Positions 12,172-44,555 of a stretch of DNA of 64,000 bases are shown in pieces. The position numbers were made by a program, and so were the translations under genes. The stretch's first letter is position 1, and each line of letters starts with the position of its first letter. Location: the NCBI RefSeq assembly GCF_000717595.1, contig NZ_JNZO01000034.1, positions 1 through 64,000 on the forward strand, read 5' to 3'. Below the pieces are notes generated by a model. The model worked only from the letters and a program-made list of their open reading frames with translations, was not told the origin of the DNA and searched no databases. The DNA is from Streptomyces flavochromogenes. Its GTDB lineage: Bacteria; Actinomycetota; Actinomycetes; Streptomycetales; Streptomycetaceae.

Positions 12172-13611
12172 ATGCGCTCTCACCTGCTCAACGACGCCAC
12201 GGCGGAGAGCTACCGGCGCTCCGTCACCGAAGGAGTCGAGCGGGTGGCGGACAAACTCGCCGCGACGCGACGTCCGTTCACCGGAGTGACCCCCGCCGAG
12301 CTCGCCCCCGTCATCGACGCCGTCGACCTCGACCGTCCGCTCGGCGACTCCTCCGCCGCGCTCGACGAGCTGGAGAGCGTCTACCTCCGGGACGCCGTCT
12401 ACTTCCACCACCCCCGCTACCTGGGCCACCTCAACTGCCCGGTGGTCATCCCCGCCGTCCTCGGCGAGGCGGTGCTCTCGGCGGTCAACTCCTCCCTGGA
12501 CACCTGGGACCAGAGCGCCGGCGGCACCCTCATCGAGCGCAAGATCGTCGACTGGACCTGCGGCCGCATCGGCCTCGGCCCCGCCGCCGACGGCGTGTTC
12601 ACCAGCGGCGGTACGCAGTCCAACCTCCAGGCACTGCTCCTCGCCCGCGAGGAGGCGAAGACGACCGACCTGTCGAAGCTCCGGATCTTCTCCTCCGAGT
12701 GCAGCCACTTCAGCGTCCAGAAGTCGGCCACCCTCCTCGGCCTCGGCCAGGACGCCGTCGTCTCCATACCCGTCGACCGGAACAAGCGGATGCAGTCCGT
12801 CGTCCTCGCCGCCGAGCTGGAGGCCTGCCGCGCCGAGGGCCTCGTCCCGATGGCGATCGTCGCCACCGCCGGCACCACCGACTTCGGTTCCATCGACCCG
12901 CTGCCCGAGATCGCCGCCCTGGCCGACGAGTACGGCGCCTGGATGCACGTGGACGCCGCCTACGGCTGCGGACTGCTCGCCTCCCCGACCCGCCGCCACC
13001 TCCTGGACGGCATCGAGCGGGCCGACTCGGTCACCGTCGACTTCCACAAGTCCTTCTTCCAGCCGGTGAGTTCCTCCGCCGTCCTGGTCCGCGACGGGGC
13101 GACCCTGCGGCACGCGACCTACCACGCGGACTACCTCAACCCGCGCCGCACCATCGCGGAGCAGATCCCCAACCAGGTCGACAAGTCCCTCCAGACCACC
13201 CGCCGCTTCGACGCGCTCAAGCTGTGGATGACGCTGCGCGTGATGGGCGCCGACGGTGTGGGGCAGCTCTTCGACGAGGTCTGCGACCTGGCCGCCGAGG
13301 GCTTCGCGCTGCTCGCCGCCGACCCGCACTACGACGTCGTGGTCGAGCCGCAGATCTCCACCCTCGTCTACCGCTACATCCCGGAGAAGGTCACGTCCCC
13401 CGAGGACATCGACCGGGCCAACCTGCACGCCCGCAAGGCCCTCTTCGCCTCCGGCGAGGCCGTCGTCGCCGGCACCAAGGTCGACGGCCGCCAGTACCTC
13501 AAGTTCACCCTGCTCAACCCCGAGACCACCGCGGCCGACATCGCCGCCGTCCTCGATCTGATCGCCGGCTACGCCGAGCAGTACCTGGGAGAGACCCTTG
13601 TCCACGCCTGA
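12172..13611 (+). CDS. desA: lysine decarboxylase, desferrioxamine biosynthesis
   Basis: 479 aa PLP-dependent group II decarboxylase that converts L-lysine to cadaverine, the first step to desferrioxamines. Seen: [49 protein letters not shown] with the PLP-contact Asp, and the Schiff-base lysine in VDFHKSFFQ. Start ATG 12172 follows GGAGG at 12159-12163. The stop lies 14 bases inside desB. It is the first gene of desABCD and is placed behind an iron box. Confidence 0.95.
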
Positions 13612-14881
13612 GACGACCGAGATCCACGACTTCATCGGCATCGGACTCGGTCCGTTCAACCTCGGACTCGCCTGCCTGACGGAGCCGATCGACGAGCTGA
13701 ACGGCCTCTTCCTGGAGTCGAAGCCCGACTTCGAGTGGCACTCGGGGATGTTCCTGGAGGGCGCCCACCTCCAGACCCCGTTCATGTCGGACCTGGTCAC
13801 GATGGCCGACCCGACCTCGCCGTACTCCTTCCTGAACTACCTGAAGGACAAGGGCCGGCTGTACTCGTTCTACATCCGCGAGAACTTCTACCCGCTGCGG
13901 ACCGAGTACAACGACTACTGCCGCTGGGCCGCCGGACGCCTCTCCTCCGTCCGCTTCTCGACCACCGTCGCGACCGTGACGTTCGACGAGGGCGCCGAGG
14001 TGTACGTGGTGACCACCGAGGGCGGAGAGACGTTCCGCGCGCGTCGTCTGGTCCTCGGCACCGGCACCCCGGCCTACGTCCCCGAGACCTGCCGGGGCCT
14101 CGGCGGCGACCTGATCCACAACTCGCGCTACCTCCCGAACAAGGAGGAGCTCCAGAAGAAGAAGTCGATCACCCTGGTCGGCAGCGGCCAGAGCGCCGCC
14201 GAGATCTACTACGACCTCCTCGGCGAGATCGACGTCCACGGGTACAAGCTCAACTGGGTGACCCGCTCCCCGCGCTTCTTCCCGCTGGAGTACACCAAGC
14301 TCACCCTGGAGATGACCTCCCCGGAGTACGTGGACTACTTCCACGCCCTCCCCGAGCAGACCCGCTACCGCCTGGAGACCCAGCAGAAGGGCCTCTTCAA
14401 GGGCATCGACGGCGAGCTGATCGACGCCATCTTCGACCTGCTCTACCAGAAGAACCTGAACGGCCCCGTGCCCACCCGCCTCCTCACCAACTCCGCGCTG
14501 CACACCGCCGCGTACGAGGAGTCGACGGGCACGTACACCCTCGGCTTCCGCCAGGAGGAGCAGGAGAAGGACTTCACCCTGGACACCGAGGGCCTGATCC
14601 TCGCCACCGGGTACAAGTACGCCGTCCCCGCCTTCCTCGAGCCGGTCCGCGACCGCCTCAACTGGGACGGCCAGGGCCGCTTCGACGTGGCCCGCAACTA
14701 CGCGATCGACACGACGGGCCGCGGGGTGTTCCTGCAGAACGCCTCCGTGCACACCCACTCGATCACCTCGCCCGACCTCGGCATGGGGGCGTACCGCAAC
14801 GCGTACATCATCGGGGCGATGCTGGGCTACGAGTACTACCCCGTCGAGAAGACCATCGCTTTCCAGGAGTTCGCGGCATGA
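13598..14881 (+). CDS. desB: cadaverine N-hydroxylase (FAD/NADPH monooxygenase)
   Basis: 427 aa member of the lysine/ornithine N-monooxygenase family; hydroxylates cadaverine to N-hydroxycadaverine. FAD-binding motif [14 protein letters not shown] at residues ~10-24 and NADPH-binding [16 protein letters not shown] near residue 190 are clear; the C-terminal FAD segment is [17 protein letters not shown]. The start is TTG 13598, overlapping desA by 14 bases and preceded by GGGAGAG. A TTG start may hold down expression relative to DesA, which is inference. The stop overlaps desC by four bases (ATGA). Confidence 0.95.
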
Positions 14882-15408
14882 CCGTATCGATACGTCCCTT
14901 CGATCCCCTGAAGGACGCGGAGCTGATCCACCCCTGGGTCACCCACCCCAAGGCCGCCTTCTGGATGATGCAGGACGCCACGCCGCAGGACGTCGAGCGC
15001 GAGTACACGGCGATCACCGCCCACCCGCACCACGACGCCTTCATCGGCGAGGTCGACGGCGAGCCGGCCTTCCTCATGGAGCGGTACGACCCGTCGGAGC
15101 TGGAGCTGGTCGGGCTGTACGAGCCGCAGCCCGGTGACGTCGGCATGCACTTCCTCGTCGCGCCCACCGACACCCCCGTGCACGGCTTCACCCGCACCGT
15201 GATCACCGCCGTGATGGCGGAGCTGTTCGCCGACCCGGCGACCCTCCGGGTGGTCGTCGAGCCGGACGTGTCCAACAAGGCCGTCCACACGCTCAACGAG
15301 GCCGTCGGCTTCGTGCCGGAGCGCGAGATCCAGAAGCCGGAGAAGAAGGCTCTGCTGAGCTTCTGCACCCGGGAGCAGTTCCAGGCCGCTGTGGGAGTCG
15401 CCGTATGA
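14878..15408 (+). CDS. desC: N-hydroxycadaverine acyltransferase (GNAT)
   Basis: 176 aa GNAT-fold acyltransferase of the IucB/RhbD type; adds acetyl or succinyl from CoA to N-hydroxycadaverine. Seen: [20 protein letters not shown] at the N-terminus, [10 protein letters not shown] before the acyl-CoA helix, and [20 protein letters not shown]. The start ATG overlaps the desB stop (ATGA), and its own stop overlaps the desD start in the same way, so desB-C-D are translationally coupled. Confidence 0.93.
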
Positions 15409-17192
15409 GCACCATCGATGTGTCGAACCCCGTCGCGCACCTCACCCCCGAGCTCTGGGCGGACGCCAACCGCGCACTGATCCGCAAGGGGCTCGCGGAG
15501 TTCGCCCACGAGCGGCTCCTCGACCCGCGGGAGCTCGGCGAGAGCCGCTACGCGGTCCTGTCGGACGACGGCACCACCGAATACCGCTTCACCGCGGACC
15601 GGTACGCCCTCGACCACTGGCAGGTCTACGCCGAGTCGATCAGCCGCCACCGCGGTGACGAGCAGCTCCCGCTCGACGCGCTCCGGTTCATCACCGAGCT
15701 GCGCGGCGCCCTCGGCCTGAGCGACGAGGTCCTGCCCGTCTACCTGGAGGAGATCTCCTCCACGCTCGCCGGTACGGCGTTCAAGGCGACCAAGGAGCCG
15801 GTCACCTCCTCCGAGCTCACCCACGCCGGTTTCCAGGCGATCGAGACGGGGATGACCGAGGGCCACCCCTGCTTCGTCGCCAACAACGGCCGGCTCGGCT
15901 TCGGCGTGGACGAGTTCCGCGCGTACGCCCCCGAGGCGGCGAGCGAGATCCACCTGATCTGGCTGGCGGCGCGGCGCGACCGCACCACCTTCACGGCCGG
16001 CGCGGGCATCGACTACGAGGCCTTCGTCCGCGCGGAGCTGGGCGACGCGACGGTGGACGGCTTCGCGGCGACCCTGGCGGCCCGCGGCCTCGACCCGGCC
16101 GACTACCTCCTCATGCCGGCGCACCCCTGGCAGTGGTGGAACAAGCTGTCCGTCACCTTCGCGGCCGAGGTCGCGCAGCAGCGCCTGGTGTACCTGGGCG
16201 AGGGCGACGACACGTATCTGGCGCAGCAGTCGATCCGTACCTTCTTCAACACCTCCGACCCGGCCAAGCACTATGTGAAGACGGCCCTCTCCGTCCTCAA
16301 CATGGGCTTCATGCGGGGTCTTTCGGCCGCGTACATGGAGGCGACTCCGGCGATCAACGACTGGCTGCACACGCTGATCGAGTCGGACGCGACGTTCCGG
16401 TCGGCGCGCTTCTCGATCATCCGCGAGCGGGCGGCCGTCGGCTACCGGCACCTGGAGTACGAGGCCGCGACCGACCGCTACTCGCCGTACCGCAAGATGC
16501 TGGCGGCGCTCTGGCGCGAGTCCCCGGTGCCGACCCTCGCCGAGGGCGAGCGGCTCGCGACGATGGCGTCCCTCCTGCACGTGGACCACACGGGCGCGTC
16601 GTTCGCGGGTGCGCTGATCAAGGAGTCGGGCCTGGAGGCCCCGGTCTGGCTCCGCCAGTACCTGGACGCCTACCTGCTCCCGGTCCTGCACAGCTTCTAC
16701 GCGTACGACCTGGCGTTCATGCCGCACGGCGAGAACGTGATCCTGGTCCTCGACGAGCGCGGCGCGGTGTCGCGGGCGATCTTCAAGGACATCGCCGAGG
16801 AGATCGTCGTCATGGACCCGGCGGCGGTCCTGCCGCCGGCGGTGGAGCGGGTCCGGGCGGAGATCCCCGAGGACATGAAGCTCCTCTCGGTCTTCACGGA
16901 CGTCTTCGACTGCTTCTTCCGCTTCCTGGCGGCGACGCTCGCCACGGAGGGCGTCCTCGACGAGGACGGCTTCTGGCGGACGGTCGCGGAGTGCGTACGC
17001 GGCTACGAGCAGTCGAAGCCGGAACTGGCGGACCGGTTCGCGCAGTACGACATGTTCGCGGAGACCTTCGCCCTGTCGGCCCTGAACCGCCTCCAGCTCC
17101 GCAACAACAAGCAGATGGTCGACCTCTCCGACCCGTCGGCGGCCCTCCAGCTCGTCGGCGACCTGGTGAACCCGATCGCCCGCTTCGCCTGA
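15405..17192 (+). CDS. desD: NIS siderophore synthetase forming desferrioxamine
   Basis: 595 aa IucA/IucC-type NRPS-independent synthetase; ATP-dependent oligomerisation and cyclisation of N-hydroxy-N-succinylcadaverine to desferrioxamine E/B. Family landmarks: GHPCFVANNGRLGFGVDEFRA (ATP/substrate region), MPAHPWQWWN, QQSIRTFFNTSDPAKHYVKT and LDAYLLPVLHSFYAYDLAFMPHGENVILVLD. Length is normal. It ends the operon; a long perfect hairpin follows after 54 bp. Confidence 0.95.
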   Translation: MSTIDVSNPVAHLTPELWADANRALIRKGLAEFAHERLLDPRELGESRYAVLSDDGTTEYRFTADRYALDHWQVYAESISRHRGDEQLPLDALRFITELRGALGLSDEVLPVYLEEISSTLAGTAFKATKEPVTSSELTHAGFQAIETGMTEGHPCFVANNGRLGFGVDEFRAYAPEAASEIHLIWLAARRDRTTFTAGAGIDYEAFVRAELGDATVDGFAATLAARGLDPADYLLMPAHPWQWWNKLSVTFAAEVAQQRLVYLGEGDDTYLAQQSIRTFFNTSDPAKHYVKTALSVLNMGFMRGLSAAYMEATPAINDWLHTLIESDATFRSARFSIIRERAAVGYRHLEYEAATDRYSPYRKMLAALWRESPVPTLAEGERLATMASLLHVDHTGASFAGALIKESGLEAPVWLRQYLDAYLLPVLHSFYAYDLAFMPHGENVILVLDERGAVSRAIFKDIAEEIVVMDPAAVLPPAVERVRAEIPEDMKLLSVFTDVFDCFFRFLAATLATEGVLDEDGFWRTVAECVRGYEQSKPELADRFAQYDMFAETFALSALNRLQLRNNKQMVDLSDPSAALQLVGDLVNPIARFA

Positions 17193-17403: not shown

Positions 17404-17952
17404 ATGAGTCGTCACTCCCTCCGCGCCGCCGCCCTCGGCACGCTCCTGCTCGCCGGTCTCGTCCCGCTCGTCGGCGGCTGCGCCGACCCCGGCGACGACC
17501 CGCGTGCGACGGCCTCCCGCGAGGGCATGCGGTACTGCCCGGGCCCCAACGAGCCGCCACTCGAACCGCAGACGCCGTGCATCTCGCAGGACCCCGCGCA
17601 GAAGTACGCGGAGAACCACGGCTACCGGCGTCAGATGGAGATCACCGAGGAGCAGCGCGCCGGGGCACGGGACAGGGCGGAAGCCCTCGCCAAGGCGCTG
17701 TGGCGCATCAAGGACGAGCCGGCCGGCGAGTCCGAGATCCGGGCGGCTGCCGCCGCCGCCCTCGGCCTGGCGCCGCACGAGCTGGAGTACCGGGAGGGCG
17801 CCCGGGGCGAGCGCCCCCAGAACATCGACGTCGGTGGCGGCGAGGGCAAGGTCTGCGTCAACGGCCGCATCGACGACCAGGGGCAGGCCACCGCCGAGGT
17901 CGCGGGCCGCACGATGGACGGAACGTGCCTGCCGGGCCTCGGAGGCCACTGA
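17404..17952 (+). CDS. secreted lipoprotein of unknown function
   Basis: 182 aa. Residues 1-25 form a signal peptide (MSRHSLRAAALGTLLLAGLV) ending at the lipobox-like Val-Gly-Gly-Cys, so the mature protein is likely lipid-anchored outside the membrane. The mature part is charged, with two cysteines early (YCPG, PCIS) and two late (VCVNG, TCLPG) that could pair. I recognise no catalytic family. The ATG at 17395 (three codons upstream) is an alternative start; neither has a well-placed Shine-Dalgarno. It converges with the GH20 gene with only 7 bp between stops. Confidence 0.7.
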   Translation: MSRHSLRAAALGTLLLAGLVPLVGGCADPGDDPRATASREGMRYCPGPNEPPLEPQTPCISQDPAQKYAENHGYRRQMEITEEQRAGARDRAEALAKALWRIKDEPAGESEIRAAAAAALGLAPHELEYREGARGERPQNIDVGGGEGKVCVNGRIDDQGQATAEVAGRTMDGTCLPGLGGH

Positions 17953-17959
17953 CGATCCG

Positions 17960-19594
17960 CTACTCCGCCGGCCAGGGCACCTCCGGGGACCGGTAGTAGT
18001 CGATGCCCAGGGCGTCGAACCTCGGGGCCTGTTCCGCGAGGCGGACCTTGTAGGTGTCCCAGTCGTGGGTCGCCGCCGGTGACCAGCCGAGTTCCGCCAG
18101 GCCCGGCAGGCGCGGGAAGGCCATGACGTCGAGGTCGTCCGTGGTGGCCAGGGTCTCCGTCCAGAGCGGGGCCTCGATGCCGCGGACGGTTTCCTCCGGG
18201 GCGCCCGCGAGGTAGGTGGCCGGGTTCCAGTCGTACGACGTGCGGACCTCCACGTAGCCCGCCCAGGCGAGGCCGAGCTTGGTGTCCTTCGTGTACTTCA
18301 TGTCGAGATACGTGCGGTCGGCCGGGGAGAGGATCAGGCCGGTGCCGTTCCGGGCGGCGGCCGCGACCCGCTCCTTCTCCTCCGTGGGGGTGCGGTCGAG
18401 GCCCCAGTACTGGACGAGTGCGCCGTCCGCCGGGGTCGTGCCGGTCAGCTGGTGCCAGCCGACGACCTTCTTCCCGTACTTCGCGACGACCGGCTGCACC
18501 TTGTCCATGAAGGTCACGTAGTCCGCGTGGCTGGTGGAGTGCGCCTCGTCGCCGCCGATGTGGATGTACCGGCCGGGGGTGAGCGCGGCGATCTCGCGGA
18601 TCACGTCGTCGACGAAGTCGTACGTGACGGGCTTCGGCACGCACAGGGAGCTGAAGCCGACCTTGACGCCGGTGTAGAGCGGCGGGGCGACGCCGTCGCA
18701 GTTGAGCTCGGCGTAGGAGGCGAGGGCGGCGTTGGTGTGGCCGGGGAGGTCGATCTCGGGAATCACCTCCTGGTAGCGGGAGGCGGCGTACCGGACGATC
18801 TCCTGGTACTGGTCCTTGGTGTAGAAGCCGCCGGGTCCGCCGCCGACCTCGGTGGAGCCGCCGTGGGTGGTGAGCCGGGGCCAGGAGTCGACGGCGATGC
18901 GCCAGCCCTGGTCGTCGGAGAGGTGCAGATGGAGGGTGTTGACCTTGTAGAGCGCGAGCTGGTCGATGTACCGCTTCACCTCGTCGACGGTGAAGAAGTG
19001 GCGGGAGACGTCGAGCATGGCGCCCCGGTAGGCGTACCGCGGGGTGTCGGTGATCGTGCCGCCGGCGATCTTCCAGGGCCCGTTCTGGACGCTCTTGCGT
19101 TCGACGGCGGAGGGCAGCTGCTGGCGCAGGGTCTGGACGCCGCGGAAGAGCCCGGCGGGTTCGCGCGCGGTGAGGACGACGCCGTCGGGGGCCGAGTGGA
19201 GCCGGTAGCCCTCGGCGCCGAGCGCGGTGTCGCCGGGGCTGAGGCGGAGCCGGATGCCGCCGCGGGCGGCGACGTCCTCGACGACGGGCAGCGGGAAGCC
19301 GGTGGCGGGGCGGAGCAGTCCGGCGAGGTAGCGGCCGAGCTCCTGGGTCTCGCGGTTCGTGCCGTCCACGCCGATGCGGGTGGTCCGGGTGAGGGTGTAG
19401 GGCTCGCCCTCGGGGGTGACGGAGGCGGGTACGGGCACGATGCGGCCGAGCGGGCGGACCTCGGGCTCGGCGGCGGCCGTGGCGTTCTTGCCGTCCGTCG
19501 TGCTGTCGGCGGCGGCCTCCCCGCAGCCGACACCGGCGGCGGCGACCAGGAGCAGGGATCCGATCAGGCGCGGAATCCTTCGGCGCTGTGTCAC
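17960..19594 (-). CDS. beta-N-acetylhexosaminidase (GH20), secreted lipoprotein
   Basis: 544 aa GH20 exo-hexosaminidase that releases GlcNAc from chitooligosaccharides. Residues 1-24 are a lipoprotein signal peptide with lipobox Ala-Gly-Val-Gly-Cys24. The N-terminal GH20b domain runs to about residue 180; the catalytic barrel begins at YRGAMLDVSRHFF. The catalytic pair is Asp349-Glu350 in YIHIGGDEAHS, the substrate-assisted mechanism of GH20. The GTG start has AAGGGGA just upstream. A DasR-type operator lies ~100 bp before the start, so induction by GlcNAc is likely. Confidence 0.93.
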   Translation of the reverse strand: MTQRRRIPRLIGSLLLVAAAGVGCGEAAADSTTDGKNATAAAEPEVRPLGRIVPVPASVTPEGEPYTLTRTTRIGVDGTNRETQELGRYLAGLLRPATGFPLPVVEDVAARGGIRLRLSPGDTALGAEGYRLHSAPDGVVLTAREPAGLFRGVQTLRQQLPSAVERKSVQNGPWKIAGGTITDTPRYAYRGAMLDVSRHFFTVDEVKRYIDQLALYKVNTLHLHLSDDQGWRIAVDSWPRLTTHGGSTEVGGGPGGFYTKDQYQEIVRYAASRYQEVIPEIDLPGHTNAALASYAELNCDGVAPPLYTGVKVGFSSLCVPKPVTYDFVDDVIREIAALTPGRYIHIGGDEAHSTSHADYVTFMDKVQPVVAKYGKKVVGWHQLTGTTPADGALVQYWGLDRTPTEEKERVAAAARNGTGLILSPADRTYLDMKYTKDTKLGLAWAGYVEVRTSYDWNPATYLAGAPEETVRGIEAPLWTETLATTDDLDVMAFPRLPGLAELGWSPAATHDWDTYKVRLAEQAPRFDALGIDYYRSPEVPWPAE

Positions 19595-19692
19595 AGGCTG
19601 GTCCCCTTCGGGCGTTGGATCAGGCGTTGGACGCGTCTGTCGAGTTCTATATCCGAACCGTCACCATGCGTACCGCCGAGGTATCCACGCGT

Positions 19693-19708
19693 CAAGGTCT
19701 GGACCAAT
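19693..19708. promoter_or_regulatory. DasR-responsive element upstream of the GH20 gene
   Basis: CAAGGTCTGGACCAAT, with the GGTC-N2-GACC core of the DasR consensus ACTGGTCTAGACCACT (11 of 16 match). It sits 99 bp upstream of the GH20 start. The same core appears before the GH18 chitinase and the AA10 gene in this window. Confidence 0.78.
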
Positions 19709-19798
19709 CACCCCGGATGACGGGTGGATCATGGCACGCCTGCCCGATATCGGGCAGGATTCTTGCGAATCGAGACAGGTACCCCCCAATATTCATGG

Positions 19799-20074
19799 GT
19801 GCTCGAACGCCGCCCGTCGCACGACGACCTCATCGACCACCTGGTCCGCAGCACCGCGCTCCAGCGCGGTGAGGCCGCCCGGGTGGTACTCGATGTGCTG
19901 GCGTACTTCGACGAGACGACCGAGGAGTTCGTCCGCCGCCGACACCGCGAACTGCAGTCCGGCGGGGCCGTGAACGCGGAGATCTTCGAACGGATCTCGG
20001 CGGAACTGCCACACCGGGCCGTGGCGCCGCCGGAGCTCTCGCTCCGGCAACTGCGCCGCATCGTCTACGGCTGA
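19799..20074 (+). CDS. small conserved streptomycete protein, unknown function
   Basis: 91 aa, cytoplasmic, without signal peptide or membrane segment. It is rich in charged helices (ARVVLDVLAYFDETTEEFVRRRHRELQ) and ends in ELSLRQLRRIVYG. The start is taken as GTG 19799 because it begins the well-formed sequence and no in-frame ATG lies nearby, though no Shine-Dalgarno is evident. It lies 53 bp upstream of glmS in the same direction and could share its transcript. I recognise it as a conserved genus-level family with no assigned role. Confidence 0.65.
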   Translation: MLERRPSHDDLIDHLVRSTALQRGEAARVVLDVLAYFDETTEEFVRRRHRELQSGGAVNAEIFERISAELPHRAVAPPELSLRQLRRIVYG

Positions 20075-20127
20075 GTCACGAACGAGCACGGCGAGCACGT
20101 TCACCAACCTGGAGGGGTTTCACCTTT

Positions 20128-21945
20128 ATGTGCGGAATTGTCGGTTACATCGGAAAGCGCGACGTCGCCCCGCTGCTCCTTGAGGGCCTGGCGCGTCTGG
20201 AGTACCGGGGATACGACTCGGCCGGCATGGTCGTCACCAGCCCGAAGGCCTCCGGCCTGAAGATGGTGAAGGCCAAGGGTCGTGTCCGTGACCTGGAGGC
20301 CCGTGTCCCCAAGCGCTTCACCGGTACCACCGGCATCGCCCACACCCGCTGGGCCACCCACGGCGCGCCGAGCGACATCAACTCGCACCCGCACATGGAC
20401 CCCGAGAACAAGGTCGCCGTCGTCCACAACGGCATCGTCGACAACGCCCAGGAGCTCCGCGCCAAGCTGGAGGCCGACGGCGTCGTCTTCGCCTCCGAGA
20501 CGGACACCGAGGTCATCACCCACCTCATCGCCCGCTCCCAGGCCACCACCCTCGAGGAGAAGGTCCGCGAGGCGCTCAAGGTCATCGAGGGCACCTACGG
20601 CATCGCCGTGATGCACGCCGACTTCAACGACCGCATCGTCGTGGCCCGCAACGGCTCGCCGGTCATCCTCGGCATCGGCGAGAAGGAGATGCTCGTCGCC
20701 TCCGACGTCGCCGCCCTGATCGCCCACACCCGCCAGGTCGTCACCCTCGACGACGGCGAGATGGCCACCCTGAAGGCCGACGACTTCCGCACGTACACGA
20801 CCTCGGGCGCGACCACCACCGCCACCCCGGAGACCGTGGAGTGGGAGGCCGCCTCGTACGACATGGGCGGTCACGACACGTTCATGCACAAGGAGATCTC
20901 CGAGCAGCCCGACGCGGTCGACCGCGTCCTGCGCGGCCGGATCGACGACCGCTTCTCCACCGTGCACCTGGGCGGCCTGAACCTGGACCCGCGCGAGGCC
21001 CGCACCATCCGCCGGATCAAGATCCTCGGCTGCGGCACCTCGTACCACGCCGGTCTCATCGGCGCCGGGCTCATCGAGTCCATGGCCCGCATCCCCGCCG
21101 ACGCCGAGCCGGCCTCGGAGTTCCGCTACCGCAACCCGGTCGTGGACCCCGACACCCTCTACATCGCCGTCTCCCAGTCCGGTGAGACCTACGACGTGCT
21201 CGCCGCCGTCCAGGAGCTGAAGCGCAAGGGCGCCCGCGTCCTCGGCGTGGTCAACGTGGTCGGCTCCGCCATCGCCCGCGAGGCCGACGGCGGCGTGTAC
21301 GTCCACGCCGGCCCCGAGGTCTGCGTCGTCTCCACCAAGTGCTTCACCAACACGGTCACCGCCTTCGCGCTGCTCGCCCTGCACCTGGGCCGCATCCGCG
21401 ACCTGTCCGTCACCGACGGCAAGCGGATCATCGAGGGCCTGCGCAAGCTGCCCGCGCAGATCCAGGAGATCCTCGAGACCGAGGACGAGATCAAGAAGAT
21501 CGCCGCGGAGTACGCCGGCGCCCAGTCGATGATGTTCATCGGCCGCGTCCGGGGCTACCCCGTCGCCCTCGAGGCCTCCCTGAAGCTCAAGGAGATCTCC
21601 TACATCCACGCCGAGGCCTACCCGGCCTCCGAGCTGAAGCACGGCCCGCTGGCCCTCATCGAGCCGGCCCTGCCGACGGTCGCGATCGTCCCCGACGACG
21701 ACCTGCTCGAGAAGAACCGCGCCGCCCTGGAGGAGATCAAGGCCCGCAGCGGCCGCATCCTCGCGGTCGCGCACCAGGAGCAGGCGAAGGCCGACCACAC
21801 CATCATCGTGCCGAAGAACGAGGACGAGCTGGACCCGATCCTGATGGGCATCCCGCTCCAGCTCCTCGCGTACCACACGGCGCTCGCCATGGGCCGCGAC
21901 ATCGACAAGCCGCGCAACCTGGCCAAGTCCGTCACGGTCGAGTAG
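20128..21945 (+). CDS. glmS: glutamine--fructose-6-phosphate aminotransferase
   Basis: 605 aa GlmS, which makes glucosamine-6-phosphate from fructose-6-phosphate and glutamine for peptidoglycan and amino-sugar synthesis. The N-terminal glutaminase domain starts directly with the catalytic Cys2 (MCGIVGYIGKRDVAP) and includes GIAHTRWATHGAPS. Two SIS domains follow: ILGCGTSYHAGLIGAGLIES with SQSGETYDVLAA, and MFIGRVRGYPVALEASLKLKE with the C-terminal PRNLAKSVTVE. The start has GGAGGGG at 20111-20117. No glmS ribozyme is seen upstream, as expected for actinobacteria. Proximity to the GH20 gene suggests linked GlcNAc metabolism. Confidence 0.95.
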   Translation: MCGIVGYIGKRDVAPLLLEGLARLEYRGYDSAGMVVTSPKASGLKMVKAKGRVRDLEARVPKRFTGTTGIAHTRWATHGAPSDINSHPHMDPENKVAVVHNGIVDNAQELRAKLEADGVVFASETDTEVITHLIARSQATTLEEKVREALKVIEGTYGIAVMHADFNDRIVVARNGSPVILGIGEKEMLVASDVAALIAHTRQVVTLDDGEMATLKADDFRTYTTSGATTTATPETVEWEAASYDMGGHDTFMHKEISEQPDAVDRVLRGRIDDRFSTVHLGGLNLDPREARTIRRIKILGCGTSYHAGLIGAGLIESMARIPADAEPASEFRYRNPVVDPDTLYIAVSQSGETYDVLAAVQELKRKGARVLGVVNVVGSAIAREADGGVYVHAGPEVCVVSTKCFTNTVTAFALLALHLGRIRDLSVTDGKRIIEGLRKLPAQIQEILETEDEIKKIAAEYAGAQSMMFIGRVRGYPVALEASLKLKEISYIHAEAYPASELKHGPLALIEPALPTVAIVPDDDLLEKNRAALEEIKARSGRILAVAHQEQAKADHTIIVPKNEDELDPILMGIPLQLLAYHTALAMGRDIDKPRNLAKSVTVE

Positions 21946-39637: not shown

Positions 39638-40477
39638 ATGCGCAAGCCACGCTGGTGGGCCGAACTGGCGCTGATCGCGGTCGTGTACGCGGCCTACTCG
39701 GGCGGCCGGCTGCTCGTCCGGGGCGACGAGGCCGCGGCCGTCGAGCACGGCCTGGCGATCCTGCGCCTGGAACGGCTCCTCGGGATCGACGCCGAGCACC
39801 CGCTGAACCGGCTGTTCACGGACGTGCCCGCCCTCGGGATCCCGGCGGACTTCGCGTACGCCTCGCTGCACTATCTCGTCACCCCGGCGATCCTGATCTG
39901 GCTCTTCCGCCGCCGCCCCGCCCACTACCGGGCCGCCCGCACCTGGCTGATGCTCTCCACCCTGCTCGGTCTGGTCGGCTTCACCCTGCTGCCCACGTGC
40001 CCGCCCCGGCTGCTCGACCCGGCGTACGGCTTCACCGACACGATGGCGTACTTCAGCGCGTACGGCTGGTGGGGCGGCGAGGCCAGCGCGCCGCGCGGGC
40101 TCGGCGGTCTCACGAACCAGTACGCGGCCATGCCCAGCCTGCACGTCGGCTGGGCGCTGTGGTGCGGGGTGATGCTCTGGCGGTACGGGCGGACCCCCGT
40201 CACGAAGGCGCTGGGGGTGGCGTATCCCCTGGTCACGACGGTGGTCGTGATGGGGACGGCCAACCACTATCTGCTCGACGCGGTCGCCGGCGCGGCCGTG
40301 ATGGGTGCCGGTCTGCTCCTCGCCCCGCACGCGCTGCGGCTCGCCCGGACACTGCGCGGGACGGCGGAAGCGCCCCCGGTTGTCAGTGGCGGATGCGAGA
40401 CTTCCACGGGTGAGCGCATCCCCGGACAGCGGTCTGTCCCGACCTCAGCAGACGACACGTCGAAAGCTGCTCGCTGA
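39638..40477 (+). CDS. PAP2-family membrane phosphatase (Aur1/Ipt1-like)
   Basis: 279 aa integral membrane protein with about six helices. PAP2 motifs: [41 protein letters not shown] (PSLH signature) and [18 protein letters not shown] (H-x-x-x-D signature). These match the PAP2_3/inositol-phosphotransferase-like group that acts on lipid phosphates. ATG 39638 has GGGGGAC upstream. The C-terminal ~25 residues are disordered, and their coding DNA overlaps the start of the nuclease gene by 68 bp. Confidence 0.85.
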
Positions 40478-41561
40478 GCTGCGCGGACCGGCCACTCCGC
40501 CGCGTCCGCTGGACGCGCGGGCCCTCGCGGCGCTGGCCGCCAACCCCGGCTGCCGGCGCCGGGCCCTGCTCGACGGCGCGGGGGTCGACAAGTCCGCGCT
40601 GGCCGCGAAGCTCGGCTCGCCGGCGCCGTTCGGGCAGTCCCAGTTCGCGATCGTCCGGGGCAACTCCTTCGAGGCGAAGGTCAAGGCGGACGGCGGCCGC
40701 GAGCTGCTGCGCCTGATCGGCGTCGAGGAGCCGGGCACGGTGTCCGTGCCCGAGCTCGCGGCCGCCGGACCCGAGGGGCGGGTGGCGCGCACGGCCCTCG
40801 CCCTGCGGGAGGCCACCGCGGCGGGGGCGTGGACGCTGCTCGACCACCCGCTGCTCGCCCTGGAGGTGGCGGGTTCGCCGGTGTACCTGGAGCCGGACGC
40901 GGTGGTGGTCCGTCCCGACGGCGGGTGGACGGTCGTGGAGATCAAGTCCTTCCCGATGGTCGACGGCGCGGCCGACGCCTCGAAGGTCGGGGCGGCGGCC
41001 CGGCAGGCCGCCGTGTACGTGCTCGCGCTCGAACGGGTGGCGGCGGTGACCGAGGGCGCCCGGGTCGCCCGGTCGGTGCTGCTCGTCTGCCCGAAGGACT
41101 TCTCCAACCTGCCGACGGCCTCCGTCGTCGACGTGCGCAAGCAGCGTGCGGTCACCCGGCGCCAGCTCGACCGGCTGACCCGGATCGACGAGATCGCGGC
41201 CGCCCTGCCGGAGGGCGTCAGCTTCGATGTGGCGGAGCGCTCGGCCGAGGAGCTGACGGCCGCCGTGGAGTGCGTGCCCCATCAGTACGCGCCGGAGTGC
41301 CTGGCCGCCTGCGAGCTGGCCTTCCACTGCCGGTCGCGGGCCCGGCAGGCGGACGCGGTGGAGACCCTGGGCCGTTCGGTACGGGGCGAGCTGGGCGGCC
41401 TGACGACGGTCGGCGCGGTCCTCGCGGCGGCGCGGGGCGAGGAGGGCGACCCGGAGGACCCGGCGGTGGCGGCTCTGCGCAGGGCGCGGGCGCTGCGGCA
41501 GGAGGCGCTGGAATCGGCGCCCGCCCGTACGCCTCGGGAGCAGGTCGAATGCCCCTGCTGA
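40410..41561 (+). CDS. RecB/Cas4-like PD-(D/E)XK nuclease with four-cysteine (Fe-S) signature
   Basis: 383 aa. Not a characterised family to my knowledge, but the full Cas4/AddB/Dna2 nuclease pattern is readable. It runs: Cys48 in NPGCRRRALLDG; a GNSFEAKV motif at ~84-91; Asp163 in YLEPDAVVV; Glu177-x-Lys179 in VVEIKS; QxxxY in RQAAVYVLAL (Gln199, Tyr203); then Cys288, Cys297, Cys301 and Cys307. One early and three or four late cysteines are the arrangement that holds a 4Fe-4S cluster in this superfamily. GTG 40410 is the only suitable start; it lies inside the PAP2 gene. It heads a three-gene unit with an unknown protein and an SF1 helicase. Confidence 0.72.
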   Translation: MSASPDSGLSRPQQTTRRKLLAELRGPATPPRPLDARALAALAANPGCRRRALLDGAGVDKSALAAKLGSPAPFGQSQFAIVRGNSFEAKVKADGGRELLRLIGVEEPGTVSVPELAAAGPEGRVARTALALREATAAGAWTLLDHPLLALEVAGSPVYLEPDAVVVRPDGGWTVVEIKSFPMVDGAADASKVGAAARQAAVYVLALERVAAVTEGARVARSVLLVCPKDFSNLPTASVVDVRKQRAVTRRQLDRLTRIDEIAAALPEGVSFDVAERSAEELTAAVECVPHQYAPECLAACELAFHCRSRARQADAVETLGRSVRGELGGLTTVGAVLAAARGEEGDPEDPAVAALRRARALRQEALESAPARTPREQVECPC

Positions 41562-41598
41562 CGCCCGTTTCCCGTACCGCGCCCCGGGAGGGCCTCGC

Positions 41599-43188
41599 AT
41601 GTCGCTGATCTCCACCCTCGCCCGCATGGAGGCCGTCGAGTCCGGCCGTGCGCAGCCCCTCGCGACCGTCCGGCACCGGCGGGTCTCCGAGCGGCCGCTC
41701 GTCCTGGTGCCGCTGACCACGGCCGGTGAGGCGGGCGCCCCGCTGGGCGCGCTCGTCGGCACCGACCCGGAGGAGCCGCGGCTCCTGGTGGTGGCCCAGC
41801 CCCGGGACCGGGACCTGCGGTTCGCGTTCCTCGCCGACCTGGCGGAGGAGGTCCTGCCGTACATCGACTCCTTCACGGAGGCCGTCGAGGCGGCGGAGAA
41901 GAGCGAGGTCGACCCCGAGACCGGCAAGAAGGTGAAGGTCGAGGTCGAGCTGTGCGCGGACGCGCCGCAGCTGATCGTGCCGAGCCGGGCGGGCATCGAG
42001 TACGTCCGGCTGCTCGGGCGGTCGACGCGGTTCCGGCGGACCGCCGAGCAGGACCCGGAGACGCCGTTCCCCGCGCCGCCGCGCGTCCCGCTCCTCGGGC
42101 GCTGGCTGACGCACTTCGGCGACCGGGCCCGGGTGCCCGGCTCCTCGCTGCTGCTGTCGGCGACCGATCTCCTCAACCGGCACTGGGCGACCGGCCAGTC
42201 CTCCCTGGAGGACCAGCACCTGGGCGCGCTGCTCGCGTGGATCGATCCCCGCGACGGTGAGCCGGGCGCCGAGGCGGCGCTGCGGGCCGAGGCCGGGCGG
42301 GACTCCGAGGGGCAGTTGCTGTGCCCGCCGGCCGGTCCGGCCACCGATCCCGCCTTCGACAACCGGCTCCTCGCGCCGGCGATCGAGCGGTACGACCGGG
42401 CCCGGCAGGCCGTCGGCGCCGCCGAGGACGGCGAGGCGGCCGAGCGCGGACTCGGCGAACTGCACCGGGCCGAGCGGGAGCTGCGCCGCCTGGTCGTCTC
42501 GCAGATGAAGCCGACGTGGGACGCGGTGTGGCGGGCGATCGGCCTGCTGCGGGAACTGCCGGAGGGGGCCAGGGTCGAGGACCGCTGGACCCGCGACCGC
42601 TGGTCCTTCACCGCCCACCGGGACCGGGTCACCTCCGGTGAGCCGCCGCAGCCGCGCCGGGACGACGCCGTGACGGCGGCCCGGAAGCTCGCCGCGCGCG
42701 AGCAGGCGCAGGGTCAGCTGGAGGCGCAGGAGGCCCTCGACGATCCGCTGGTGCTCGCCGGACGGCGGCTGTCGGGCGAGGCGTTCACGGCCGAGGTGGT
42801 CGAGGTGACGATGGCGTGGACGGAGTCCAAGCGGCCCGCGCCGCGCCCGCTCCTCACGGTCCGCACCGAGGACCGGCCGCATCTGGGCGAGAAGGTGAAG
42901 GTGTACCGCTCGCTCGAAGGGAAGCCGCAGTCGGCGGAGTTCGTGCGGTACGAGGAGGACGGGGCGCTGCTGCTGCGCCTCCTCGACAAGATGGGCCGCT
43001 CGAAGGAGCCCGCGGAGGGTTCGGTGCCGGAGAAGGGCGAGCGGATCGCCTGGACGCTGTTCGAGCACGACCAGCGGGTCGGGCCGCAGCTGCCGGAGGC
43101 GGAGGAGACGCCCTGGACGCACGGCGGTCCTCCCCGGGCCGACGTCGTGGAACTGCCCGACGCCGTGACCGCGGAGGATGTGCTGTGA
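41599..43188 (+). CDS. unrecognised 529-aa protein of the nuclease/helicase unit
   Basis: I do not recognise this family. It is acidic, cytoplasmic and has no signal peptide. The N-terminal half has VSERPLVLVPLTTAGEAGAP and a segment EEVLPYIDSFTEAVEAAEKSEVDPETGKKVK. The middle (~275-340) is helical and may be a coiled coil (AERGLGELHRAERELRRLVVSQ). The C-terminal ~120 residues (FTAEVVEVTMAWTESKRPAPRPLLTVRT ... KVKVYRSLEGKPQSAEFVRYEEDG) look like a small beta-barrel, reminiscent of the OB/1B modules of Dna2/UPF1-type helicases. It starts after GGGAGGG, 37 bp behind the nuclease, and overlaps the helicase start by four bases. A DNA-binding bridge between nuclease and helicase is inferred. Confidence 0.7.
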   Translation: MSLISTLARMEAVESGRAQPLATVRHRRVSERPLVLVPLTTAGEAGAPLGALVGTDPEEPRLLVVAQPRDRDLRFAFLADLAEEVLPYIDSFTEAVEAAEKSEVDPETGKKVKVEVELCADAPQLIVPSRAGIEYVRLLGRSTRFRRTAEQDPETPFPAPPRVPLLGRWLTHFGDRARVPGSSLLLSATDLLNRHWATGQSSLEDQHLGALLAWIDPRDGEPGAEAALRAEAGRDSEGQLLCPPAGPATDPAFDNRLLAPAIERYDRARQAVGAAEDGEAAERGLGELHRAERELRRLVVSQMKPTWDAVWRAIGLLRELPEGARVEDRWTRDRWSFTAHRDRVTSGEPPQPRRDDAVTAARKLAAREQAQGQLEAQEALDDPLVLAGRRLSGEAFTAEVVEVTMAWTESKRPAPRPLLTVRTEDRPHLGEKVKVYRSLEGKPQSAEFVRYEEDGALLLRLLDKMGRSKEPAEGSVPEKGERIAWTLFEHDQRVGPQLPEAEETPWTHGGPPRADVVELPDAVTAEDVL

Positions 43189-44555
43189 CCGTGTTCGACC
43201 TCTCGACGCCGCCCGTCGGCGACGCGGCGCCCTTCGATCCCTCGGCCGCCGCGGGCCAGGCGACGGCCGACATCCTCGCGGCCACCCTGCACGGCACCGC
43301 CCGCGGTGTCGTCGTGGACTCCCCGCCGGGTGCGGGGAAGTCGACGCTCGTGGTGCGGGCCGCGCTCGAACTGGCCGCGGCCGGACGCCCCCTGATGGTG
43401 GTGGCCCAGACGAACGCGCAGGTGGACGATCTGGTGCTGCGGCTCGCCGAGAAGGAGCCGGACCTGGAGGTCGGCCGGCTGCACTCCAACGACAGCGACC
43501 CGTACGACAAGGCGCTCGACGACCTGGAGAACGTAAGGAAGTCGGCGAAGGCCGGTGAGCTGACCGGGCTTCCGGTCGTGCTCTCCACGGCCGCCAAGTG
43601 GGCGCACGTGAAGAACGTCGAGCCGTGGGCGCATGCGATCGTCGACGAGGCGTACCAGATGCGTTCGGACGCGCTGCTCGCCGTGGCGGGGCTCTTCGAG
43701 CGGGCGCTGTTCGTGGGCGACCCCGGTCAGTTGGACCCGTTCTCGGTGGTGGGCGCCGAGCAGTGGGCGGGACTCTCGTACGACCCGTCGGCGAGCGCGG
43801 TCTCCACCCTGCTCGCGCACAATCCGGAACTGCCGCAGCACCGGCTGCCGGTGTCCTGGCGGCTGCCCGCCTCGGCGGCGCCGCTGGTCTCGGACGCTTT
43901 CTACCCGTTCACGCCGTTCCGCAGCGGCACCGGGCACGGGGACCGGAAGCTGTCCTTCACGGTCGCGTCGGACGGTTCGGGCCCCGACCGGGTCCTCGAC
44001 GAGGCGGCGGAATCGGGCTGGGGCCTGCTCGAACTGCCCGCCCGGCACACCCCCCGCACCGACCCGGAGGCGGTCGGCGCGGTCGCCGTCGTGGTGCGCC
44101 GGCTTCTCGACCGGGGCGGCGCCGCGGTCTCGGAGCGTTCGGAGACCCCCGTGCCCCTGACGCCCGACCGGGTCGCGGTCGGCACCGCCCACCGCGACCA
44201 GGCGGCGGCGGTCCGGGCGGCCCTCGCCGAACTGGGCGTCACGGGCGTGACGGTGGACACCGCGAACCGGCTCCAGGGGCGTGAGTACGACGTGACCGTC
44301 GTCCTCCATCCGCTGTCCGGGCGCCCCGACGCGACCGCCTTCCACCTGGAGACGGGCCGGCTGTGCGTGCTCGCGTCCCGGCACCGGCACGCGTGCATCG
44401 TGGTCTGCCGGGCGGGCGTCACGGGCCTGCTCGACGCGCACCCGTCGACCGAGCCGGTCCAGCTGGGCGTCGCCGTGTCGTTCCCGGACGGCTGGGAGGC
44501 GAACCACGCGGTCCTCTCCCACCTGGAGGAACACCGGGTCGCCTGGACGCCCTGA
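43185..44555 (+). CDS. superfamily 1 (Dna2/UPF1-like) helicase
   Basis: 456 aa, only the core RecA-like domains. Walker A VDSPPGAGKSTLVV (Lys52); motif Ia MVVAQTNAQVDDLV; motif II IVDEAYQM (Asp154-Glu155); motif III LFVGDPGQLDPF; motif IV LPVSWRLPASAAPL; then AVGTAHRDQAAAVRAAL; motif V VDTANRLQGREYDVTVV; motif VI LASRHRHACIVV. This is the SF1B pattern of Dna2/UPF1 helicases rather than UvrD. The GTG start overlaps the preceding stop (GTGA), so translation is coupled and a complex of the three products is likely. The 1B/stalk insertions of Dna2 are missing from this chain. Confidence 0.8.
   Translation: MTVFDLSTPPVGDAAPFDPSAAAGQATADILAATLHGTARGVVVDSPPGAGKSTLVVRAALELAAAGRPLMVVAQTNAQVDDLVLRLAEKEPDLEVGRLHSNDSDPYDKALDDLENVRKSAKAGELTGLPVVLSTAAKWAHVKNVEPWAHAIVDEAYQMRSDALLAVAGLFERALFVGDPGQLDPFSVVGAEQWAGLSYDPSASAVSTLLAHNPELPQHRLPVSWRLPASAAPLVSDAFYPFTPFRSGTGHGDRKLSFTVASDGSGPDRVLDEAAESGWGLLELPARHTPRTDPEAVGAVAVVVRRLLDRGGAAVSERSETPVPLTPDRVAVGTAHRDQAAAVRAALAELGVTGVTVDTANRLQGREYDVTVVLHPLSGRPDATAFHLETGRLCVLASRHRHACIVVCRAGVTGLLDAHPSTEPVQLGVAVSFPDGWEANHAVLSHLEEHRVAWTP

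Follow-up and report, generated by a model that had tools for sequence, protein, structure and literature searches.

A three-gene nuclease-helicase unit in Streptomyces: possibly an overlooked bacterial equivalent of a key DNA-end-processing enzyme of eukaryotes

The 64-kb stretch of Streptomyces flavochromogenes DNA analyzed here (contig NZ_JNZO01000034.1, positions 1 to 64,000; "the window") contains a unit of three co-directional genes within positions 40410-44555. They encode a predicted iron-sulfur (Fe-S) nuclease (gene 1), a protein without sequence family (gene 2) and a helicase of superfamily 1B (SF1B; gene 3). With a probability of roughly 0.6, this unit is a split DNA-end-processing complex resembling Dna2 and the TM0106-type enzymes, damage-inducible in the core genome and recruited by defence islands. 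As such, it may represent a bacterial equivalent, so far unrecognised, of an enzyme that is central to DNA-end processing in eukaryotes. The claim is architectural and assigns no family, because profile comparison did not confirm homology; the reading as a split complex therefore rests on fold, order and context. An earlier note, made from the letters of the same DNA, had already placed the three genes and the GTGA shared by the gene 2 stop and the gene 3 start, and both the positions and this 4-nt overlap (43185-43188) are as it described them (Table 1).

Judged by its sequence, gene 1 is a PD-(D/E)XK nuclease with a Cys tetrad of the Cas4/Dna2 type, and an Fe-S cluster is predicted. The layout of one Cys followed by three, together with a D/ExK/QxxxY set, is a hallmark of such nucleases. 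Residues are numbered here on a 418-aa reading from position 40305 (P0001), which adds 35 to the numbers of the earlier note; GTG 40410 is supported as the start because the promoter element described below ends 7 nt upstream. Of 123 gene 1 loci, 115 were aligned (the others were dropped for an internal stop, truncation or length), and 103 remain after removal of doubly fetched loci. In this set, Cys83, Cys332, Cys336 and Cys342 are kept in 103/103 loci, as are Gln234 and Tyr238, while Asp198 is found in 102 and Glu212 and Lys214 in 101. The motifs read in the earlier note (the catalytic set and Cys48, 297, 301 and 307, the four cysteines above) are thus conserved, with the exception of its Cys288 (P0001 Cys323), which is ruled out as a cluster ligand because only 4/103 loci have a Cys there. 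Pfam gives PDDEXK_1 at E 0.0038, under the family cut-off, and no Dna2 nuclease match at E <= 1. The single sequence found no match in the PDB; the matches of the gene 1 alignment, a weak one to a viral protein and two to engineered repeat proteins, were regarded as artefacts of composition.

Gene 3 is, from its sequence matches, a bare SF1B motor, in agreement with the earlier description as a helicase core. Both AAA_11 (E 3e-12) and AAA_12 (E 5e-7) lie above the Pfam cut-off, and the PDB matches by sequence are SMUBP-2/IGHMBP2 (E 1.9e-8) and DNA2 (E 1.3e-7). The Walker A pattern is present in 84/84 distinct loci, which remain from 99, via 98, after removal of defective rows and loci fetched twice. 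In relatives of gene 3, a 1B barrel precedes Walker A. No such barrel precedes Walker A on the gene 3 chain in these 84 loci, where the segment ahead of it has a median of 39 and a maximum of 87 residues. A weak NCBIfam helicase match, PLuB, was also returned; the papers listed in a literature search (20 of 230) make no mention of it.

The middle protein has resisted assignment. Its best Pfam match has an E of 0.13, nothing was found at E <= 1 in NCBIfam, PADLOC or PHROGs, and its alignment reached a best E of 1.1 against the PDB by sequence. This profile search could have revealed an unrelated enzyme family, and no such family was matched. For gene 2, 110 distinct loci remain from 126, via 125, after removal of defective rows and loci fetched twice. 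The earlier note had called the protein unrecognised, with an OB-like end, and this end is a beta-barrel (residues ~376-489) in a confident predicted model. The barrel is nearest to the 1B domain of IGHMBP2, SETX and Sen1 and aligns by fold with IGHMBP2 residues 32-139, consistent with the position of 1B before Walker A in those relatives; other barrels score within one Z unit of the best match. On the model, the C-terminal barrel of gene 2 would suit as the helicase domain that gene 3 is without. The N-terminal part (~31-383) has a fold like that of the exonuclease region in family-B polymerases. In the first strand of this part, the customary DxE pair was not found, so this domain is probably a structural or single-stranded-DNA-handling part. 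In one locus, that of Amycolatopsis iheyensis (L062, 9635-11230), a single frame covers an N-terminal portion of the nuclease together with most of gene 2, as if joined by deletion.

The order of the parts appears to be that of the TM0106-type enzymes, in which a Cas4/RecB-like nuclease, an RNase H-like domain, a linker/barrel and an SF1B helicase follow each other on one chain of ~1100-1200 aa. Here, the same series would be carried by three proteins, with cuts after the nuclease and after the barrel; nuclease and helicase correspond by order, and the parts of gene 2 at the fold level only. Single-chain actinobacterial proteins were found with the IGHMBP2-family model, and seven of ten re-fetched stretches were used, without L209-L211; L172, a helicase without nuclease or RNase_H_2 among the eight proteins scanned, was also left out. 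RNase_H_2, AAA_11 and AAA_12 are present in all seven, with ~220 residues between RNase_H_2 and the helicase. PDDEXK_1 lies ahead of RNase_H_2 at E <= 0.001 in four of them (one of the remainder is truncated at its start), and a Cys triplet pattern is found in six. TIGR03491, the TM0106 family, was passed by 5/5 proteins scanned. Genes 1 and 2 match neither RNase_H_2 nor any NCBIfam family at E <= 1, TIGR03491 included, and their membership of the latter is rejected.

Eukaryotic DNA2 combines an Fe-S PD-(D/E)XK nuclease, a 1B barrel and an SF1B helicase in this order, and it is not known to have a polymerase-exonuclease-like part. Since gene 2 also has such an N-terminal half, the TM0106-type enzyme is the closer single-chain template. 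Gene 3 is related to DNA2 by sequence; the triad differs from DNA2 in being split over three chains and in the missing Pfam Dna2 nuclease match. With the IGHMBP2 and Upf1-like SF1B helicases, the likeness is in the gene 3 core by sequence and in the gene 2 barrel by fold, whereas here barrel and motor are on separate proteins and a nuclease partner is added.

The three genes occur together. Among 199 Streptomyces genomes (E <= 1e-3 for gene 2, 1e-60 for the helicase and 1e-20 for the nuclease), gene 2 was found in 187, the helicase in 188 and the nuclease in 186. All three are present in 184, part of them in five and none in ten. Four of the ten (G353, G431, G465 and G495) have 50-140 contigs and a completeness of no less than 98%, and the other six consist of 480-1,770 contigs; the five partial genomes comprise four drafts of 630-1,420 contigs and G010, with 2 contigs and 93% completeness. 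In a wider sample of the phylum, 11 of 296 genomes contain gene 2, nine of them from the window's genus, its own genome included. Gene 2 relatives make up 3,678 of 7,999 scored candidates at E <= 0.001, the best named ones being from Streptomyces.

Gene order was followed in 80 loci from named genomes, the best 80 of at least 594 relatives in a scan of genome contigs; their frequencies are no population rates, because the ranking leaned towards an accessory copy. The nuclease adjoins gene 2 in 79 of them, and the 80th starts inside the unit. This recurring order and the number of relatives argue that gene 2 is no chance member. The helicase lies within the fetched stretch in 55/80 loci. A helicase relative of 63-66% identity was found elsewhere in 15/15 genomes (14 of the 25 loci without a nearby helicase, plus G224, where it lies ~36 kb away). 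Such genomes are better evidence for a unit than joint loss, because neighbours can be lost together. They also bear on the idea that the operon encodes three DNA-metabolism proteins and no single machine; the helicase would then need no barrel, and gene 2 would be an unrelated scaffold whose six-stranded barrel is of a generic kind. We consider this quite unlikely. The failure of gene 2 to match any helicase or RNase H family by sequence, the close scores of other barrels and the separate location of the helicase gene in Micromonospora-type genomes would suit it, but the retention of the separate helicase in every such genome searched and a domain order matching that of the single-chain enzymes speak for the split complex.

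The window copy is in conserved synteny, with neighbours that are largely common to the ten core loci of Streptomyces compared. Of 19 Streptomyces core loci in which gene 1 was matched, 16 have the promoter element of Table 1 ahead of the unit; a twentieth, L012, has no such match and is outside this count. The other three comprise two truncated loci (L009 and L011) and L036, where the element has diverged (TTCTCGGTG). We take the RecA-NDp (PafBC) consensus to be TTGTCRGTG-N8-TANNNT. Measured against this presumed consensus, the -35 part and the spacing fit in the 16 loci, and the -10 part is without the first T in all of them. The window's genome has 56 sites of the RecA-NDp type, versus one for a reversed control pattern. 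When 30 of these (L142-L171) were checked for the next gene, nine had no reading frame by the criteria used and seven had a start exactly 7 nt after the element. Ten of the rest were scanned; RuvC, a DinB-type polymerase, DnaX and WGR, macro-domain and L-PSP proteins were recognized, and four remained blank. RecA-NDp promoters, that of recA among them, are known in S. coelicolor from passages of PMC5087735, and passages of PMC8223512 tie the motif to PafBC. Induction of the core unit by DNA damage would be expected from this element.

Accessory copies have different neighbours. In a quick tree of 109 gene 2 rows (L012 and L062 left out; long branches flagged, L046 among them), one starred clade of 19 rows stands out. 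Wadjet genes are found in the fetched stretch of 18/19 of its loci, L058 being the exception, and they belong to several types (Table 1). Within this clade, there are at least six switches of Wadjet type and at least five of the side of the unit on which Wadjet lies. SbcC and SbcD lie divergently upstream of the unit in 18/19 clade loci, with fragments in L027 and none in L051. A second arrangement is found outside the clade in Micromonospora (L099), where one strand carries the nuclease, gene 2, the helicase, SbcD, SbcC, a type II JetA (DUF2397, in a broken frame, 17709-19138) and a JetC2-like match. Since its SbcCD is just 29-31% identical to the other kind, L099 looks like a second recruitment. 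The long-branch row L046 has divergent SbcCD, and its fetched stretch includes a type II JetA at one edge; L089 has a type III-like Wadjet set (18385-21151, 27-34% identity). Where both flanks extend for 6 kb or more, Wadjet is found in the stretch of 14/15 clade loci versus 2/65 outside the clade (L089 and L099). Counting L062, 23 loci bear SbcCD, and Wadjet is beside 19 of them, not L058, L062, L081 or L108. These 19 belong to at least two separate lineages.

Another observation concerns the Wadjet genes themselves. In six of the eight type I Wadjet loci (L026 at 14931, L047 at 12932, L048 at 12918, L050 at 6742, L051 at 12926 and L052 at 12925), a perfect TTGTCAGTG-N8-TANNNT closely precedes JetA. 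This RecA-NDp-type element suggests a DNA-damage-inducible Wadjet.

Other defence genes accompany the unit as well. The Shango genes SngA-SngC are directly upstream in Amycolatopsis pretoriensis (L108, 75-7955), a type IIG enzyme is near the unit in L046, and a GmrSD-like gene (PADLOC HEC-05) is inserted between gene 2 and the helicase in L064 (11577-13919) and L067 (11579-13915). Two Streptomyces genomes contain second copies (L042, 1034-7273, and L045) beside genes of the pPIWI_RE three-gene island and a separate PDDEXK_1 nuclease; the neighbours were scanned in L042, and those of L045 are their clustered relatives. In both, the unit's own nuclease is without His181, Glu212 and Lys214. Two copies of the unit are on named Streptomyces plasmids.

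With such company (Wadjet of types I, II and III, Shango, the pPIWI_RE island, the GmrSD-like insert and the plasmids), the unit could primarily serve anti-phage or anti-plasmid defence, the core copy being a domesticated relative kept for immunity, not repair. This is unlikely in view of the shared core synteny and the DNA-damage-type promoter of the window copy, and of the 187 of 199 Streptomyces genomes with gene 2, core and accessory copies pooled. In addition, no gene 2 relative was found in phage records, and none of 13 pattern matches in viral contigs was confirmed in a pattern-limited scan. A housekeeping role of the window copy, favoured in the earlier note among roles in repair, at forks or in defence, fits the synteny and the promoter; the strong tie of relatives to defence islands speaks against housekeeping as the sole role.

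Gene content, conservation, co-occurrence, gene association, the promoter motif and the predicted folds are what the analysis shows; for the split DNA-end-processing complex, we infer from them assembly, activities, induction and an order of action as follows. Gene 3 would be the motor that unwinds DNA, with a 5'->3' polarity taken from its family. Gene 2 would be an adaptor that docks on gene 3, lends its 1B beta-barrel in trans for the grip on DNA and contributes the pseudo-exonuclease-like domain, and gene 1, stabilized by the predicted Fe-S cluster, would cleave the unwound strand. In Streptomyces, this would be a vertically inherited, DNA-damage-inducible housekeeping complex for the resection of ends that are broken or stalled. 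In accessory lineages, SbcCD (Mre11-Rad50) and the unit, standing beside Wadjet, would probably destroy the linear DNA left by Wadjet cutting. Wadjet cuts circular and not linear DNA, according to passages of PMC10586767. We tentatively suggest, at rather less than even odds, that a helicase taking its 1B barrel from another protein, together with an Fe-S nuclease, forms a three-subunit bacterial Dna2, and that with SbcCD it is an unrecognised clean-up arm of Wadjet, paralleling Mre11-Rad50 plus Dna2 resection in immunity. If true, Actinobacteria have a damage-inducible Dna2 counterpart overlooked by annotation because its parts are on three chains, the middle one without family. The separation of motor and barrel would make the role of 1B testable by subunit omission, and the repeated company of SbcCD and Wadjet would offer a concrete candidate for the fate of plasmid DNA after Wadjet cleavage.

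The substrate could also be RNA. IGHMBP2, SETX and Sen1 act on RNA or R-loops, and they are the nearest helicase relatives by sequence and barrel fold; the unit might then clear R-loops or RNA at stalled forks, as Upf1-like helicases and IGHMBP2 act on RNA. We hold this to be very unlikely, as gene 3 is closely related to DNA2 as well, its partner is a Cas4/Dna2-type nuclease, and DNA is the substrate of the neighbouring SbcCD and Wadjet.

Several points weigh against the split DNA-end-processing complex. Profile comparison with the single-chain template was not significant (1.6% for gene 2, 1.3% for gene 1). Comparison in pieces did not change this: with the C-terminal piece of gene 2, the barrel region ranked first among seven (1.5%), and the N-terminal piece reached 0.1% with the RNase_H_2 region. 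If the genes were lost independently by chance, 0.04 genomes without all three would be expected versus the ten observed, a null that is unfair because neighbours vanish together in one deletion or assembly gap, which makes the co-loss weaker evidence. The association of the clade with Wadjet (Fisher p ~1e-12) was calculated on related loci that are not independent. It could also be over-read, as DUF2397 is found somewhere in 4/6 genomes searched, including those of L058 and L062, where it is on other contigs. Finally, PMC9380542 disagrees with the promoter assignment: an initial search reported there suggested that S. venezuelae does not conserve the M. smegmatis PafBC motif. The proposal of a split Dna2-like system in the earlier note thus stands in part: gene 2 matched no unrelated family, the genes co-occur, the tetrad and ExK residues are conserved and the barrel fits gene 3, while the profile comparisons lend it no significance.

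Other nuclease-helicase systems are more distant. AdnAB, AddAB and RecBCD resect ends with a helicase and a RecB-like nuclease, some of them with Fe-S, and have UvrD-like SF1A motors. Gene 3 has no UvrD family match in Pfam at E <= 1, and membership of this group was rejected. The Hachiman pair of HamA nuclease and HamB helicase is, according to the abstract of PMC12278908, a nuclease-helicase complex responding to DNA damage. Kinship with it had been raised in the earlier note; it was rejected, as genes 1-3 have no HamA (DUF1837) or HamB match in PADLOC at E <= 1. The unit differs from Hachiman also in its three proteins and its core-genome copy. Literature searches (Wadjet, SbcCD, Dna2/Cas4/Actinobacteria) found no report of the three-gene unit among the papers listed or in passages of PMC10586767.

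Table 1. Features of the three-gene unit in the window, and loci of the starred clade with Wadjet genes beside the unit.
Feature	Position or loci	Strand	Remarks
RecA-NDp/PafBC-type promoter element TTGTCAGTG-N8-GAGACT	40380..40402	+	ends 7 nt 5' of the gene 1 GTG
Gene 1, Cas4/Dna2-type PD-(D/E)XK nuclease, predicted Fe-S cluster	40410..41561	+	383 aa from GTG 40410; conserved residues
Gene 2 (P0002, 529 aa), without sequence family	41599..43188	+	predicted two-part fold; PWTH close to the C-terminus almost invariant
Gene 3 (P0003, 456 aa), SF1B Upf1/IGHMBP2/DNA2-like helicase core without own 1B barrel	43185..44555	+	AAA_11/AAA_12 and PDB matches
Type I Wadjet JetABCD beside the unit	L026, L027, L047-L052		
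Another type I Wadjet form beside the unit	L059-L061		
Type II Wadjet beside the unit	L039, L054, L057		
Type III Wadjet beside the unit	L053, L055, L056, L063		

A fourth protein (c15), encoded upstream of the nuclease in accessory copies, had no Pfam match in three of the four copies scanned and FliJ at E 0.0036 in the fourth. Its predicted model resembles coiled-coil hairpins, with no Foldseek row at E <= 0.001. No copy was found in the ten core Streptomyces loci compared. A search that detected it in 5/8 other genomes found none in the window's genome, and it was therefore rejected as part of the core unit. Elsewhere in the window, genes at 12172-17192 resemble, by eye, a siderophore cluster of the desferrioxamine type.

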